A DNA stretch of 64,000 nucleotides from Caldalkalibacillus uzonensis (GTDB lineage: Bacteria; Bacillota; Bacilli; Caldalkalibacillales; Caldalkalibacillaceae): NCBI RefSeq assembly GCF_030814135.1, contig NZ_JAUSUQ010000005.1, positions 124,001 to 188,000 on the forward strand. The letters are read 5' to 3'. Shown in pieces: positions 42,058 through 47,516 of the stretch (positions are counted from its first letter, which is position 1; each line of letters opens with the position of its first letter). A model generated the notes under the pieces. That model searched no databases, was not told the origin of the DNA, and saw only the letters and a program-made list of their open reading frames with translations. A program made the position numbers and the translations under genes.

Positions 42058-42343
42058 ATGAACCAAAACCGAGTGCCCCTTGATGTATCCGCAGCGATCA
42101 ACCGGATTATGGCCAGGGTTGAGTTGGGTGAAACGGAAGTGGTTCCCCTTGCGGAAGCCAATGGCCGTTACCTGGCTGAAGATTTGATTGCCGATCACCC
42201 GGTTCCCTCCTTTAACCTGGATCGAGGTCAAACGGCCGGTTAAACCAGGGGAAAATATTGCCCGGAGGGGAGAAGATACACTGCAAGGAGAAGTGGAAGT
42301 GTTGTGGCTGGAGCGGCCGGATGAGGGGAATTTTTATGTCTAA
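42058..42343 (+). pseudogene. moeA: moeA (molybdopterin molybdenumtransferase), internally deleted
   Basis: The first about 52 codons are a normal MoeA N-terminus (VPLDVSAAINRIMARV, VPLAEANGRYLAEDLIADHPVPSFN). At about 42219 the reading jumps: the shifted frame carries the mid-MoeA motif VKPGENIARRGEDT and then VEVLWLERPDEGNFYV up to TAA 42341-42343. The MPT-binding core and most of the remaining 300-plus residues are absent. The first frame itself stops at 42243. Remnants of both ends of a roughly 400-residue gene survive, so this is a deletion-derived pseudogene. Functional moeA must be elsewhere if the Mo enzyme is active. Confidence 0.75.
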
Positions 42344-42887
42344 ACAACAAAACCAGATCCCGGTATTACAGATAGTCGGGTATAAAAACAGCGGCAAAAC
42401 CACATTGATCACCAAGGTGGTTCGCCACCTCGTCCATGGGTATGGCCTGCGCATTTTAACGGTCAAACATGATCATGGCCATTTTGATATGGACCGGGAG
42501 GGAACCGATACCTGGGCTCACCGCCAGGCAGGTGCACAGTCCATTCTGATTCAGTCTCCACATGGAATAGGATTGACAATGGCACATGATCAGGAAAAAT
42601 CTTTAGACCAGTTACTCCGGCTGGTCCAACATGCAGGTGATTATGATTTGGCTCTTGTGGAAGGATTTAAACAAGCTGATTTTCCTAAGCTGGTTCTGAT
42701 CCGTCATGAGAAAGATTTGCCTTTGCTTGAACAGCTGTCTAACATTAAGTGGGCCGTGTTCTGGCAGGAAGCCGACCGGCAGCACTATGTCCATCAGTGT
42801 GATCGCAGGGGGATTGCCCCTTTTCCAACAGGATTGTTGGTTGAGACGGACAAACTGCTGACATGGGTAGAAACAATCGTGCTGTAA
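42336..42887 (+). CDS. mobB: molybdopterin-guanine dinucleotide biosynthesis adaptor MobB
   Basis: A 183-residue P-loop GTPase aiding MobA. The Walker A motif GYKNSGKTTLITK is near residue 15; TVKHDHGHFDMDREGTDTWAHRQAGA and LALVEGFKQADFPKLVLIR are the family's switch and Walker B regions. ATG 42336 overlaps the last codons of the moeA remnant (ATGTCTAA), reflecting the original moeA-mobB coupling. The upstream in-frame extension belongs to the moeA remnant in another frame. Confidence 0.9.
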   Translation: MSKQQNQIPVLQIVGYKNSGKTTLITKVVRHLVHGYGLRILTVKHDHGHFDMDREGTDTWAHRQAGAQSILIQSPHGIGLTMAHDQEKSLDQLLRLVQHAGDYDLALVEGFKQADFPKLVLIRHEKDLPLLEQLSNIKWAVFWQEADRQHYVHQCDRRGIAPFPTGLLVETDKLLTWVETIVL

Positions 42888-43349: not shown

Positions 43350-43730
43350 TCAATAAAAGAAGCCTCTGCGGGCGAAGGGCCGTGGGAAGAAAGGACGGCG
43401 GAAGAATGGTCTTCTAAATCCAGCAAACGGGAAAAAGGCAGCTGCGAAGGCAATAGCAGCAATCGCAGCAAGAGCTACCGCCACTGGAAAGAAAAAGAAC
43501 AAAACTTCTTCTCCTTTTTCCTTTGATGTGGTTGTTATGGCGTGCTTAGCGTCAGGTGTCCCTTCTTCAACTTTCGGCTCAAGTGAGACACCCTGTCCGA
43601 GGGGGGTAATATAAACATGAGTAGGTGTAACCCTGTCAACACGACCGGATATTCTTCTCCCATCTCTTGTCCGGATATATGCGATACGCCCTATATTAGC
43701 CCGGCAAAGGTGATAATACGGGTGGGCCAT
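43350..43730 (-). CDS. small spore-surface-like protein, family A (member 1)
   Basis: 126 residues. The N-terminal domain (YYHLCRANIGRIAYIRTRDGR, then SGRVDRVTPTHVYITPLG) is shared with the genes at 44643 and 45361. Its C-terminus is an alanine-rich hydrophobic helix followed by a repetitive Arg/Pro/Phe tail (RRPFFRRPFFPRPFARRGFF). AAGGAGG lies 7 bases before ATG 43730. CATACACTA at 43773-43781 (minus strand) matches the shared sigma-E/sigma-K -10 core, but no -35 is clear. A spore coat or germination role is suggested by composition and neighbours. Not a family I can name. Confidence 0.7.
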   Translation of the reverse strand: MAHPYYHLCRANIGRIAYIRTRDGRRISGRVDRVTPTHVYITPLGQGVSLEPKVEEGTPDAKHAITTTSKEKGEEVLFFFFPVAVALAAIAAIAFAAAFFPFAGFRRPFFRRPFFPRPFARRGFFY

Positions 43731-43937
43731 AACCATACCTCCTTTAATTATAGTAATAAGCAGACTCAAAATTAGTGTATGTATTTTAATTTTTGAAAGA
43801 TTGGACATGTGTATATAGACTCTCAAAAGATTTTGTAAGGAAAAGGTTGTCCAATTATGAGTTCTATTTCCTTGGTACAGGCCATAAGCTGTACTAACGG
43901 ATGTGCAATCAGTGAGGTATTTAAGGAGAGGTGCCGT

Positions 43938-44048
43938 ATGGATAGTGTGATTGCCTGGACAGACGGGATATTAGCGTTTATATTGTGGGCCATCGGTTTG
44001 TCTGCGTTGGTCATGTTGTACAGGGATCAACCTCATTTAACGGAGTAG
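43938..44048 (+). CDS. 36-residue single-TM peptide
   Basis: AAGGAGAGG lies about 6 bases before ATG 43938. The product is MDSVIAWTDG, then the hydrophobic helix ILAFILWAIGLSALVML, then YRDQPHLTE. A perfect hairpin (AACGGAGTAGA...TCTACTCCGTT, 44039-44062) ends the transcript. Small membrane peptides of this type are common in sporulating bacilli. Function unknown. Confidence 0.5.
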   Translation: MDSVIAWTDGILAFILWAIGLSALVMLYRDQPHLTE

Positions 44049-44054
44049 ATGTTT

Positions 44055-44357
44055 CTACTCCGTTTGTTTGTTGTTGGCCGCTTGGTTTTCCTCCAAATCG
44101 TTGATTTGAACCCCTTCCTTGCCATCCTCATTGAACCACTTTTGAATCTCTTCGGCATCAGCTTCTGCCGTAAAGCCAATATTGAGTGTTCCGCTCAGTT
44201 CCTGGACCACCAATTCTTGAATCTTGTAATTGATGTTTTCAATATGGACCGGTTTGATGTTTTCCAGCTTCTGTCTCAATTCCTCATTATCTTTCTCCAG
44301 TTTTTGAAGGCGCTCTTCCAGGTGTTGAATATATTCCGGGGGTAAATAAACGTACAT
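44055..44357 (-). CDS. GerPC-like spore germination protein
   Basis: 100 residues. An N-terminal coiled coil (YIQHLEERLQKLEKDNEELRQKLEN) is followed by IKPVHIENINYKIQELVVQELSGTLNIGFT, which matches the GerPC core (hydrophobic-K-I-x-x-I-x-Y-K...L-x-G-T-L-N-I-G). GerPC is usually about 200 residues, so this is a short form. ATG 44357 has GAGGTGG 6 bases upstream. CATACACTA upstream of the start (minus strand, near 44437) again resembles a sporulation -10. GerP proteins help germinants cross the coat. Confidence 0.72.
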   Translation of the reverse strand: MYVYLPPEYIQHLEERLQKLEKDNEELRQKLENIKPVHIENINYKIQELVVQELSGTLNIGFTAEADAEEIQKWFNEDGKEGVQINDLEENQAANNKQTE

Positions 44358-44642
44358 GTGGACCACCTCAACGGATAGTGTCAGCCACAGTCCATGTGAC
44401 AGAGGCCAGCTTATAACCTTAGGCTCATACTATAGTGTATGACAAAGTGTGTGGGCGATTGCCACATGATTGAGCCATTTGACCAATTATGAACGTGCAA
44501 GGCAGGTGCCTCGTCCAGATGAAATCCCCTGACATATCTATATAGTAAGCCTTAGACACAGACGAACGTCGATATAACTGGGCTAAATTTGTTTTTTATG
44601 ATTAACACAAAAAGGAAGTTTATCGAGAGGAGGGATCGGTGC

Positions 44643-44945
44643 ATGTCCTATTATTACCATCTGTGCAGAAGGAACATTGGCCGGGGGGCAATAATTCGAA
44701 CCAGAGACGGCAGGGAGTTCCGCGGAATTATTTCCCGTGTGACACCGACACACGTTCTGTTAACGCCTATGAGCAGAAGGGTGTCGGGAAAAACGGCTGA
44801 AGGGGTACGCTATGAAGCTCAAACTGCAAAAACAGACAACCGCCAGCCGGAAGGTACCGAAATCTTGTGGGGATGGTGGCTCCCGTTTTTGGCTATTTCT
44901 TCTCTAGCCTTTCTTCCCTTTTTCCTTTTCCCATTCTGGTGGTAA
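44643..44945 (+). CDS. small spore-surface-like protein, family A (member 2)
   Basis: 100 residues. YYHLCRRNIGRGAIIRTRDGR, then RGIISRVTPTHVLLTPMSRR is clearly paralogous to the genes at 43730 (minus) and 45361. The C-terminus is a short hydrophobic, tryptophan-rich segment (LWGWWLPFLAISSLAFLPFF) ending FPFWW. The N-terminal part has the look of a small Sm/SH3-like barrel. AGGAGGG lies 8 bases before ATG 44643. Function unknown; a spore-envelope location is inferred from neighbours and composition. Confidence 0.7.
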   Translation: MSYYYHLCRRNIGRGAIIRTRDGREFRGIISRVTPTHVLLTPMSRRVSGKTAEGVRYEAQTAKTDNRQPEGTEILWGWWLPFLAISSLAFLPFFLFPFWW

Positions 44946-44946
44946 G

Positions 44947-44972
44947 TAAAAAGCCCCTTGAACGGAAGGGGC
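44947..44972 (-). terminator. terminator serving the minus-strand Pro/His-rich gene
   Basis: GCCCCTT-GAACGG-AAGGGGC is symmetrical and has TTTTT immediately after it on the minus strand. It also follows the + strand gene ending at 44945. Confidence 0.7.
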
Positions 44973-44981
44973 CTGGTAAGG

Positions 44982-45194
44982 TTATTCAGAGCGAAACATG
45001 GTATAGGGGTAAGCAGGAAACGGTACAGGATGCACAGGAATAACGGGATGGGGAAAAAGCGGATGGGGTGACACAGGGTTTATGGATGGGTGATACACCA
45101 TGCCCCACTCCAGGGGGTGAGTAAGATCATCCCCTGCTGGCCAGCTGGGTGTATAAATGTGGGCATGTGAAACATGGGACCAATATGGATACAT
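44982..45194 (-). CDS. Pro/His/Tyr-rich spore-coat-like protein
   Basis: A 70-residue protein beginning MYPYWSHVSHAHIYTPSW. A run of short repeats follows in which proline alternates with His, Val, Phe and Tyr (SPHPLFPHPVIPVHPVPFP). AAAGGAGG lies 8 bases before ATG 45194. Low complexity, high His/Tyr/Pro and a short length are typical of CotD-like coat proteins. The assignment is by composition and neighbourhood only. Confidence 0.6.
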   Translation of the reverse strand: MYPYWSHVSHAHIYTPSWPAGDDLTHPLEWGMVYHPSINPVSPHPLFPHPVIPVHPVPFPAYPYTMFRSE

Positions 45195-45360
45195 GAGGCT
45201 TCCTCCTTTGTGTTGCATAAGGTAAAAGGCAAGGCACTCAACCAATTTCTTCATTATATGCATGTGTACAATCCCATGGTGAATTTGTGTCATAAGATAT
45301 ATGACGCAAGTGAAAAAATTGGTCGAGAAATTAAATAAGGTTTTGTGAGGAGGATAAATT

Positions 45361-45669
45361 GTGCCGCAACATCTGTATCGGTTGTGTTGCTCCTGCATCG
45401 GAAAAACGGCAAGGATACGGACTCGAGACGGTCGGGTATTGACGGGGCGTATTTGTTGGGTGACGCCATCCCATGTTCACCTCATTCCTGTTGGGAGACC
45501 GGTTAATCAGGAGAATGAAAAGGTTACGGTTCAGCACGCCCTAGCGGATCATATGCTGCAACGGGGAACCGAAATATGGTTTTTTGGTGGCCGGATTATT
45601 GTCCCCTTAATCGCAATTATGGGTTTAACGATTGTAGGCACAGCACCGTTTTGGGGAGGGCCGTTTTAA
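45361..45669 (+). CDS. small spore-surface-like protein, family A (member 3)
   Basis: 102 residues. LYRLCCSCIGKTARIRTRDGR, then TGRICWVTPSHVHLIPVGRP is the same domain as at 43730 and 44643, here with three cysteines near the start. A C-terminal hydrophobic helix (IIVPLIAIMGLTIVGTAPF) ends GGPF. GTG start with AGGAGG 7 bases upstream. Conserved across the three copies are LCR/LCC, IRTRDGR, V-T-P-(T/S)-H-V and a C-terminal aromatic/hydrophobic anchor. Confidence 0.7.
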   Translation: MPQHLYRLCCSCIGKTARIRTRDGRVLTGRICWVTPSHVHLIPVGRPVNQENEKVTVQHALADHMLQRGTEIWFFGGRIIVPLIAIMGLTIVGTAPFWGGPF

Positions 45670-45806: not shown

Positions 45807-46100
45807 TCAGGCGTCTTTGAAGAAGCGGTGAGAAAAATGTTTCAGCTCATCTAAGTCGTCAATCTCTACCTTGGTGCCTTGCTCATAGGGGGACATAATC
45901 AGTCCTGCTTTTTTAAATACAGTAGGGGAGCCACACTGGGCGCAAAAAGCAGCCTGGGGATGGTTCATCTTTTTGCAGGGATCTCCCATAGGTCCGCCGT
46001 CATTGGTACATTTGTTTTGCAGAGGAGCCCCGCAATGAGTACAATACTGGTCTTTCTCATCCGGTTGACGCCCACAGCGAATGCAATACTCCACTTTCAT
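45807..46100 (-). CDS. zinc-ribbon protein
   Basis: A 97-residue soluble protein with repeated C-x2-C pairs: YCIRCG, YCTHCG, then KCTNDGGPMGDPCKK and FCAQCG. It has two treble-clef/zinc-ribbon-like units and an acidic C-terminal tail (VEIDDLDELKHFSHRFF). ATG 46100 has GGAAGGTG 5-6 bases upstream. Divergent from the Hsp20-like gene. Partner and role unknown. Confidence 0.7.
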   Translation of the reverse strand: MKVEYCIRCGRQPDEKDQYCTHCGAPLQNKCTNDGGPMGDPCKKMNHPQAAFCAQCGSPTVFKKAGLIMSPYEQGTKVEIDDLDELKHFSHRFFKDA

Positions 46101-46184
46101 TCTTTCACCTTCCATCTTTGCTCACCAATTGAATACGGGCTCATATGATAAGATATGAAGACCGTGTGAGGAGGGTTCATCGCC

Positions 46185-46613
46185 ATGATTCCGAATGACA
46201 TGGATCTCAATCAATGGAAGACTTATGCCCAAAGACTGCTGGGCAGGGATTTTTTTGCCGATTTTGCCGCTGATTTTGATATGCACAATACGGAACCAAA
46301 ATATAATATCTATCGAAGTGCCTCCGAGATCATTGTATTAATTAACCTTCCTTACGTCCGGGATCTCTCTCAAATCAAATTAAATGTCCGGGAACAGGAA
46401 CTCTTTATTAAAGGAAAAATTGATTTGGGTTATGAGCACATGGAAACGGTTCAAAACCAGATCTTTTCGGGCAGTTTTGAAAAAACCATCTCACTGCCTG
46501 CTCTGGTCAATACTAAAAGAGTGAATGCCCAGTATCAACGGGGAATATTGAAAGTACAGCTGTTCCCTAAGTTAAGAGGAGAGGGAAAAGCTGTTAACAT
46601 TGAAGACATTTAA
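46185..46613 (+). CDS. divergent Hsp20-like (CotM/CotP-type) protein
   Basis: A 142-residue protein. The alpha-crystallin core is recognisable in YRSASEIIVLINLPYVRDLSQIKLNVREQELFIKG and SGSFEKTISLPALVNTKRVNAQYQRGILKVQLFPK. The N-terminus is acidic and phenylalanine-rich (FFADFAADFD). It is more divergent than the Hsp20 at 30666 and lies among spore genes. A coat-associated small heat-shock protein like CotM/CotP is likely but not certain. GAGGAGG precedes the ATG. Confidence 0.7.
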   Translation: MIPNDMDLNQWKTYAQRLLGRDFFADFAADFDMHNTEPKYNIYRSASEIIVLINLPYVRDLSQIKLNVREQELFIKGKIDLGYEHMETVQNQIFSGSFEKTISLPALVNTKRVNAQYQRGILKVQLFPKLRGEGKAVNIEDI

Positions 46614-46680: not shown

Positions 46681-46905
46681 CTATAATTGGACTTGAGGCT
46701 GATCAACAAGATCAGGATCCTTGACTACATTTAAATCAAACTTTGTGACAGGTCTGTTAAAAGCGTCACCAAAAATTTCCTGTCCGCCAACCGATTGATC
46801 GTTACCGGCATATCCTTTGTGGATAGCATCGCCAAAGTTGACGGTTCCGTTAAAGGATACATTGAGAACGCTTATAAAGCAGATGCGGTTAAAATGGGTG
46901 AACAA
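46681..46905 (-). CDS. GerPA/GerPF-like spore germination protein (copy 2)
   Basis: 74 residues. SFNGTVNFGDAIHKGYAGNDQSVGGQEIFGDAFNRPVTKFD, then VVKDPDLVDQP follows the GerPA/GerPF pattern (N-G-x-h-N-F-G, a Ser/Gly-rich turn, G-D-x-x-N, D-x-D-x-D/x-x-Q). It is a close paralogue of the gene at 47478. TTG 46905 is selected, with AAGGAGGG 8 bases upstream on the minus strand. It is the third gene of a minus-strand trio and probably acts in germinant passage through the coat. Confidence 0.75.
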   Translation of the reverse strand: MFTHFNRICFISVLNVSFNGTVNFGDAIHKGYAGNDQSVGGQEIFGDAFNRPVTKFDLNVVKDPDLVDQPQVQL

Positions 46906-46946: not shown

Positions 46947-47216
46947 CTAAGGCAACCCATCTGATTCGGATGCTGCCCCAGGGGATAGATCTTCATCATC
47001 TACAGCCGGACGCGGGACTGCCACCTGTCCGGGGTCAGGGATTTCTCCCAGAGCCACCTCCTCATCCGCGGACACTGCTTCTTCCTCTCTCTCCTCAAGC
47101 TGTGGAAAATAGGTGGTGGCAGTGGCTCGGTTATGGCAAATAATCGTTTTACCAATGTTAAGCGAACCAATATTCGTAATCGCGTTCACTCTGATATTCG
47201 TAATCCTGATGTGCAT
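46947..47216 (-). CDS. GerPB/GerPE-like small spore protein
   Basis: About 89 residues. ITNIRVNAITNIGSLNIGKTIICHN resembles the N-terminal core of GerPB/GerPE proteins (I-N-x-I-x-V-x-x-I-x-N-x-S/G-x-L-x-I-G). An acidic, Pro/Ala-rich tail of about 50 residues follows (EEREEEAVSADEEVA...). ATG 47216, with GAAAGGAC about 8 bases upstream, is preferred over ATG 47252, which has no ribosome site. It lies between two GerPF-like paralogues on one strand. Confidence 0.65.
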   Translation of the reverse strand: MHIRITNIRVNAITNIGSLNIGKTIICHNRATATTYFPQLEEREEEAVSADEEVALGEIPDPGQVAVPRPAVDDEDLSPGAASESDGLP

Positions 47217-47256
47217 CAGCGACAGTCCTTTCGTTAAGGGTTCTCTGTTCATGGGT

Positions 47257-47478
47257 TTACAATTGTTTTTGAGGCTGATCGATCAGGTCAGGATCTTTGA
47301 CCAGATTTTTATCAAAGTTGGTGGCCGGCCCATTCACAGCATCCCCGATAACCGTCTGCCCGCCGACTGATTTGGAGTTGGCCGAATGCCCCTTGTGGAT
47401 GACATTACCAAAGTTGACTGATCCGTTACTGGAAATGTTGTTGATTCTGATCCCAAATATATTGTTAATGTGTGTCAC
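47257..47478 (-). CDS. GerPA/GerPF-like spore germination protein (copy 1)
   Basis: About 73 residues. THINNIFGIRINNISSNGSVNFGNV, then IHKGHSANSKSVGGQTVIGDAVNGPATNFD and LVKDPDLIDQP aligns without gaps to the gene at 46905. GTG 47478 makes the two N-termini match and has GGGTGAT just upstream. The ATG at 47508 is the alternative but has no ribosome site. A sigma-K-like promoter precedes it. It is the first gene of the trio. Confidence 0.75.
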   Translation of the reverse strand: MTHINNIFGIRINNISSNGSVNFGNVIHKGHSANSKSVGGQTVIGDAVNGPATNFDKNLVKDPDLIDQPQKQL

Positions 47479-47516
47479 TGGAATCACCCGAATCACCTTT
47501 TTTGGCATGTTTGTTT

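Follow-up and report, generated by a model that had tools for sequence, protein, structure and literature searches.

Sm and Hfq rings are held together like GerQ rings, by a continuous antiparallel sheet. GerQ, an inner-coat protein reported to recruit CwlJ, forms nine-subunit rings through such a sheet, each subunit having two helices and five strands; the text of that paper nowhere refers to Hfq, LSm, barrel, DALI or Foldseek (PMC11405398). For the GerP proteins, a deletion phenotype is reported: loss of gerP delays germination, and removal of the coat cures the delay (PMC2817736). A further coat protein of relevance here is YodI. In the literature, B. subtilis YodI (O34654) appears among the listed coat proteins, with a match of 95.181% in another strain; it is spore-associated, its level is constant through spore revival, a table places it under sigma-K control, and yodI, as a spore coat gene, is absent from Anoxybacillus flavithermus. 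Its function is given as not known in the papers that list it as a sigma-K-controlled coat protein. In the literature covered, mostly outside subscription journals and in part, YodI is nowhere assigned a fold, and no coat protein is described as Sm-like.

Here, we describe three genes, A, B, and C, located in a 64,000-nucleotide stretch of the Caldalkalibacillus uzonensis genome (the window). The family to which they belong is real, spore-linked, and uncurated; it has one known member, YodI, and a predicted Sm-like core.

Three family genes in a gerP cluster

The positions and layout of the three genes are as follows:

43350..43730, minus strand: gene A, YodI-type, 126 aa, putative Sm-like domain at approx. 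residues 1-46 (recovered in the whole-genome search)
44643..44945, plus strand: gene B, YodI-type, 100 aa, putative Sm-like domain at residues 1-43
45361..45669, plus strand: gene C, YodI-type, 102 aa, hydrophobic tail at approx. residues 79-95

For gene A, the ATG at 43730, which lies 7 nt after AAAGGAGG, is preferred over the TTG of the mechanical open reading frame. The three products have a common N-terminal domain of approx. 45 residues with the motifs Y-x-LC, IG-R/K, IRTRDGR, and VTP-T/S-HV, followed by tails that differ from one another and are hydrophobic or aromatic (a hydrophobic segment at approx. 77-93 and then an R/F-rich end in A; approx. 80-96 in B, with PFWW as the final residues). 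A whole-genome search with B as the query recovered A with 48% identity (E 2e-19) and C with 43% (E 4e-11), so that the likeness among the three is far beyond chance. The reading frames of the original prediction, with their common domain and differing tails, are real, and so is their paralogy; the count of three has to be raised, as the genome has about eight copies. The same search returned pieces on contigs C1, C9, C20, C30, and C31, among which those on C9, C20, and C31 appear truncated or frameshifted.

Between A, B, and C, silent sites are saturated, whereas protein identity over the first ~50 codons is 46-63%. The second genome of the genus has orthologues of A (90% identity, dN/dS 0.42) and C (86% identity, dN/dS 0.60). 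Because the silent sites are saturated and orthologues are present in that genome, A, B, and C are old paralogues. In a domain tree of 53 columns, too few to settle most forks, the three genes and further copies from the order form one group (9 rows, 100/87) within the YodI-like half, and the gerP-linked members of two further genomes of the order (G003 and G004) are placed elsewhere, without firm support. Two near-identical stretches on contigs C30 and C20 (L006 and L007) each carry a family copy, that of L007 with a frameshifted tail, as well as a CotF-like small gene (recognised by eye) and a YmaF-like His-rich gene. YmaF-like neighbours were found beside three family copies only in the 86 loci scanned.

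Genes A, B, and C themselves do not match PF10676 or PF10737, whereas their neighbours do. The surrounding genes are:

44055..44345, minus strand: short GerPC-like gene (PF10737, E 1.2e-8, 35.6 bits, cut-off 22.4)
44982..45197, minus strand: small coat-like gene rich in Pro and His, situated between B and C and assigned by composition only; no Pfam or NCBIfam match
46185..46613, plus strand: Hsp20-type gene (PF00011, E 9.6e-9)
46681..46905, minus strand: gerPA/gerPF family gene (PF10676, 34.1 bits, over the cut-off)
46947..47252, minus strand: GerP-like small gene of the TNIGSLNIGKTI type, assigned from sequence only
47257..47508, minus strand: gerPA/gerPF family gene (PF10676, 48.7 bits)

The two PF10676 genes are the only ones found in the genome; a look-alike of the gene between them, at locus L025, scores 0.0008 with the gerPA/F profile. 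The same cluster includes a double zinc-ribbon protein (45807-46115, minus strand), which adjoins C also in the second genome of the genus (L010). Farther away, at 42058-42343 (plus strand), a moeA-like gene in two fragments lies directly upstream of a mobB-like gene (42258-42887; both by eye).

A family member is located inside the gerP cluster in all five genomes of the order that were covered (G000-G004). As a general rule, gerP linkage fails: outside the order, it was met only in G169 (at ~5 kb) and on a Priestia megaterium plasmid among 86 loci that differ in length and partly overlap. On this plasmid (NZ_CP032531.1, L131), two YjcZ genes are accompanied by a methyltransferase gene, a YodI-type gene, and two gerPA/F-like genes, the last three items following in succession, with the final two annotated as 'spore germination protein'. 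Given the position in the gerP cluster and the gerP deletion phenotype, a role of A, B, and C in GerP-dependent coat permeability can reasonably be inferred from position only.

YodI as an anchor for the family

The link to a named protein comes from gene order. The family member of B. velezensis (WP_007612011.1, 83 aa, annotated as a hypothetical protein in the PLSDB record) is flanked by a SAM methyltransferase on one side and by an M15 peptidase, deoD, a YodL domain protein, and YozD on the other, an order that we take to be the yodH-yodI-yodJ-deoD-yodL region, as in B. subtilis. A similar arrangement is seen in G018, where the member lies between a methyltransferase and VanY-, DeoD-, and YodL-type genes (names by eye), and a methyltransferase cluster accompanies the family gene at 19 of 35 named loci and in 6 of 40 diverse regions. 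The published match of 95.181% fits 79 of 83 residues. Over the domain, B. velezensis YodI shares 52% identity with A (42 residues) and 53% with C (43 residues), and B is 40% identical to a YodI-locus member. Comparison of these sequences shows A, B, and C to be homologues of the spore coat protein YodI; since they are placed in the gerP cluster and the yodH-yodI-yodJ-deoD order is not found around them, they are paralogues or relocated copies rather than the yodI orthologue by position. By analogy with YodI, their products would be located in the spore coat.

Putative promoters of the mother-cell type

The regions upstream of the family show a strong enrichment of mother-cell -10 boxes (CATAnnnTA): 42 of 94 such regions of 150 nt, which are not mutually independent, contain one, compared with 64 of 622 regions before neighbouring genes and, over 200 shuffled sets, a mean of 6.2 (sd 2.1, maximum 11). 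Outside the named, closely related Bacillaceae loci, the box is found in 31 of 67 upstream regions. A sigma-A-like pattern is not enriched in the same regions (1 vs. 2.5). In the window, such boxes precede A, C, the GerPC-like gene, and the Hsp20 gene:

43773..43781, minus strand: mother-cell (sigma-K/E type) -10-like box CATACACTA, 51 nt before gene A
44433-44441: -10-like box CATACACTA before the GerPC-like gene
45291..45299, plus strand: sigma-K type -10-like box CATAAGATA, 70 nt before gene C
46142-46150: -10-like box CATATGATA before the Hsp20-type gene

The G001 orthologues of A and C are likewise preceded by a -10 box, and no exact CATAnnnTA box was found upstream of gene B. The sigma-K type promoters of A and C are putative, being matches to the consensus. 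A GT[C/A]CA-type block, perhaps a -35 element or an activator site, lies approx. 18-25 nt before CATAnnnTA in many lineages, for example before A and C.

Distribution and link to sporulation

Family members were detected at E 0.001 or better in 174 of 398 Bacilli genomes (74 of 145 genera). SpoIVA is present in 268 of the same genomes and in 173 of the 174 that carry a family member (Fisher p 5e-41, from a cross-table compiled by hand from two genome tables). Sporulation can do without the family, since no member was detected in 95 of the 268 genomes with SpoIVA. In a phylum-wide search, 7 of 299 genomes matched at E 1e-4; six of them are Bacilli, and the seventh is unconvincing. This match outside Bacilli (G484, E 1.8e-5) was set aside as unsupported, as the open frames seen there are unlike the family. 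This is a Bacilli family that is nearly confined to genomes with sporulation genes.

The original prediction had called the three proteins spore-type and had named presence in non-sporulating lineages among the observations that would refute it. The spore assignment is strongly supported by the distribution of SpoIVA, by the enrichment of mother-cell promoters, and by the presence of YodI in spore proteomes. A single genome of the 174 departs from this picture: G324, which is 97% complete, carries a family member (L040, L097) and lacks both SpoIVA and SpoVAD. It may represent a lineage that lost sporulation, possibly recently, or a true exception. The description of the family as unrecognised holds for the databases, since no Pfam, NCBIfam, or PHROG model reached its cut-off or a convincing E-value for A, B, or C, but one member, YodI, already had a name as a coat protein. 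A phage origin was rejected: query B had no relative in the viral contigs, and there was no convincing PHROG match (best E 0.017, to the tail of C). Matches of the OrtA and RimP type (E 0.03-0.2) were judged to be small-barrel noise.

The counts in this work derive from 95 non-redundant members, of which 92 entered the tree, 93 the tail count, 94 the promoter count, and 91 the motif count. The alignments (A5, 84 rows; A7, 64 rows) were hand-picked, with short or broken copies left out, whereas the promoter and tail sets include the degenerate copies L007 and L008, and the promoter set also L005.

Predicted fold and proposed function

The core of the N-terminal domain is predicted, with fair support from profiles and models, to be Sm/LSm/Hfq-like, with a helix and three strands. 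In the search of the PDB with the 84-member profile, the best match was SmAP 1m5q (E 0.0038), and 12 of the top 20 rows were named Sm, LSm, or Hfq-like. AlphaFold placed a helix at residues 5-10 and strands at 15-19, 25-33, and 38-42 of B (pLDDT near 90), followed by a disordered linker, and gave the YodI-locus member the same helix-beta-beta-beta core; the overall confidence of the models is modest (mean pLDDT 72 and 64, respectively). Structural alignment of the B model with LSm and Hfq covered 43-51 residues (Z ~5), and the YodI-type model could be aligned with many Hfq chains across ~60 residues (Z 8-9); in Foldseek, where all E-values were above 0.001, Hfq ranked first for the latter model at E above 0.05. 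Among Pfam families, SM-ATX (PF14438) gave E 2e-6 for the best of the 84 members, and its score with gene B (15.8 of 29.8 bits) is below the cut-off. SM-ATX and DUF2642 are the top-scoring Pfam models for B. The suggestion of a Sm- or KOW-type barrel can be kept for Sm at the domain level; the KOW reading, with one match among the 84 members (E 0.087), was rejected, as was a Tudor reading based on weak matches. The loop position at which Sm proteins keep an Asn varies freely in the family (91 members).

We consider it most likely that A, B, and C encode structural small-barrel coat proteins. The full reading, to which we assign a probability of roughly 0.6, is that they are YodI-paralogous proteins that would be expressed late in the mother cell under sigma-K/sigma-E type promoters and become part of the spore coat. 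In each, a variable linker would join a Sm/Hfq-like small-barrel domain to a hydrophobic C-terminal segment with an aromatic end. By analogy with GerQ, the barrels most likely pair their edge strands into rings or sheets, and the hydrophobic segment would either complete the barrel or seat the protein in the inner coat or the outer forespore membrane. Because of their position in the gerP cluster in this order, these copies probably help to build the inner-coat layer through which germinants pass.

The tail is the part of the protein on which the strongest alternative depends. A hydrophobic 17-mer after residue 45 is present in 90 of 93 members (and in none within the first 48 residues), and 89 of 93 have an aromatic residue within the last two positions. 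It is possible, although we hold it to be about half as probable as the preferred reading, that the tail, as a transmembrane or amphipathic segment, anchors the protein in the outer forespore membrane and that coat proteins dock on the three-stranded domain, which would point towards the mother cell, with neither a ring nor a completed barrel. Such a tether is consistent with the membrane-segment-like hydrophobicity of the tails, with the helix at 79-95 in the B model (block pLDDT 81), with the profile matches to the PDB, which cover mainly the Sm1 half, and with the tails themselves, 88 of 91 of which lack the Sm2-like [IVL][RK]G (present in 3). However, in the YodI-type model the tail forms strands 4-5 of a full small barrel (pLDDT ~60), and hydrophobic ends are common among coat proteins that are not membrane proteins. 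The models thus differ, and the tail may either complete the barrel or anchor the protein in the membrane.

The barrel could also be a generic SH3/Tudor-like one that resembles Sm by convergence and has no ring-forming edge. Both models have a designed small barrel as their closest structural match, and weak Tudor and designed small-barrel matches occur among the Sm matches, but Sm, LSm, and Hfq dominate the profile and structure lists, N-terminal helix included, which makes this reading unlikely. Least probable is that the proteins bind RNA, acting on mother-cell mRNA or being stored with RNA in the coat: the Sm-like core, the positive charge of the first 48 residues (81 of 91 members, median +5), and the ribonuclease KapD, which is reported to act on mRNA and to be located in the spore crust, would fit, but none of the 91 tails has the Hfq-type YKH/FKH motif, the Asn position is free to vary, the tails and linkers are of the coat type, and YodI, with its constant level during revival, behaves as a structural protein might.

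Comparison with known systems

The preferred reading, that of assembling small-barrel coat proteins, bears on an open problem, namely how small germinants pass the coat and what the GerP proteins do physically. For an uncurated family that spans Bacilli (174 of 398 genomes), the analysis supplies a likely fold and an expression program, and it connects the family to a named model gene (yodI) and, genetically, to gerP. With a likely fold, a named gene, and this link, the germinant question becomes testable by simple deletions in laboratory strains.

Two other families share features with the domain. The YodI-type model matched the GerQ filament (8zra) at Z 8.2 over 64 residues, and the YodI and GerQ profiles aligned weakly over the same core (hhalign 5%, E 0.007). 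GerQ (PF09671) was not among the Pfam matches listed for the 84 members at E 0.1. In G005, two adjacent family genes are next to cwlJ-gerQ, the one case among the 86 scanned loci in which gerQ was found. The YodI and DUF2642 (PF10842) profiles aligned over 38 columns (77.7%, E 1.9e-5); gene B scored 13.0 of 22.7 bits, below the cut-off, and A and C had no match. The genome has one true DUF2642 member elsewhere, and the B. subtilis control also has DUF2642. These similarities suggest that GerQ is not alone as a Sm-like coat scaffold. It is rather doubtful, though worth stating, that the Bacilli spore coat uses the Sm/Hfq ring as a building material, with GerQ, DUF2642, and the YodI family forming one small-barrel coat group that assembles into rings or sheets through edge-strand pairing, and that in this order several YodI paralogues with differing tails make up mixed rings inside the GerP apparatus that serve as germinant pores or gates.

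GerQ is, like YodI, a mother-cell spore coat protein, but its N-terminal arm is long and it lacks a hydrophobic end. DUF2642 proteins have a second half of the FFIR..IVWVMP type and no tail of the kind seen in the family. With Sm, LSm, and Hfq proteins, the family has in common the predicted helix and three-strand Sm1-like core, and it is set apart from them by its hydrophobic, aromatic-ended tail and by its restriction to Bacilli, nearly all of them spore formers. YodI is the closest relative: it has the same N-terminal domain and the same layout with a hydrophobic C-terminal segment as A and C, whereas its linker is Gly/Tyr-rich and those of A, B, and C are charged or polar, and the three genes lie in a gerP-linked cluster, away from the yodH-yodJ locus of YodI.
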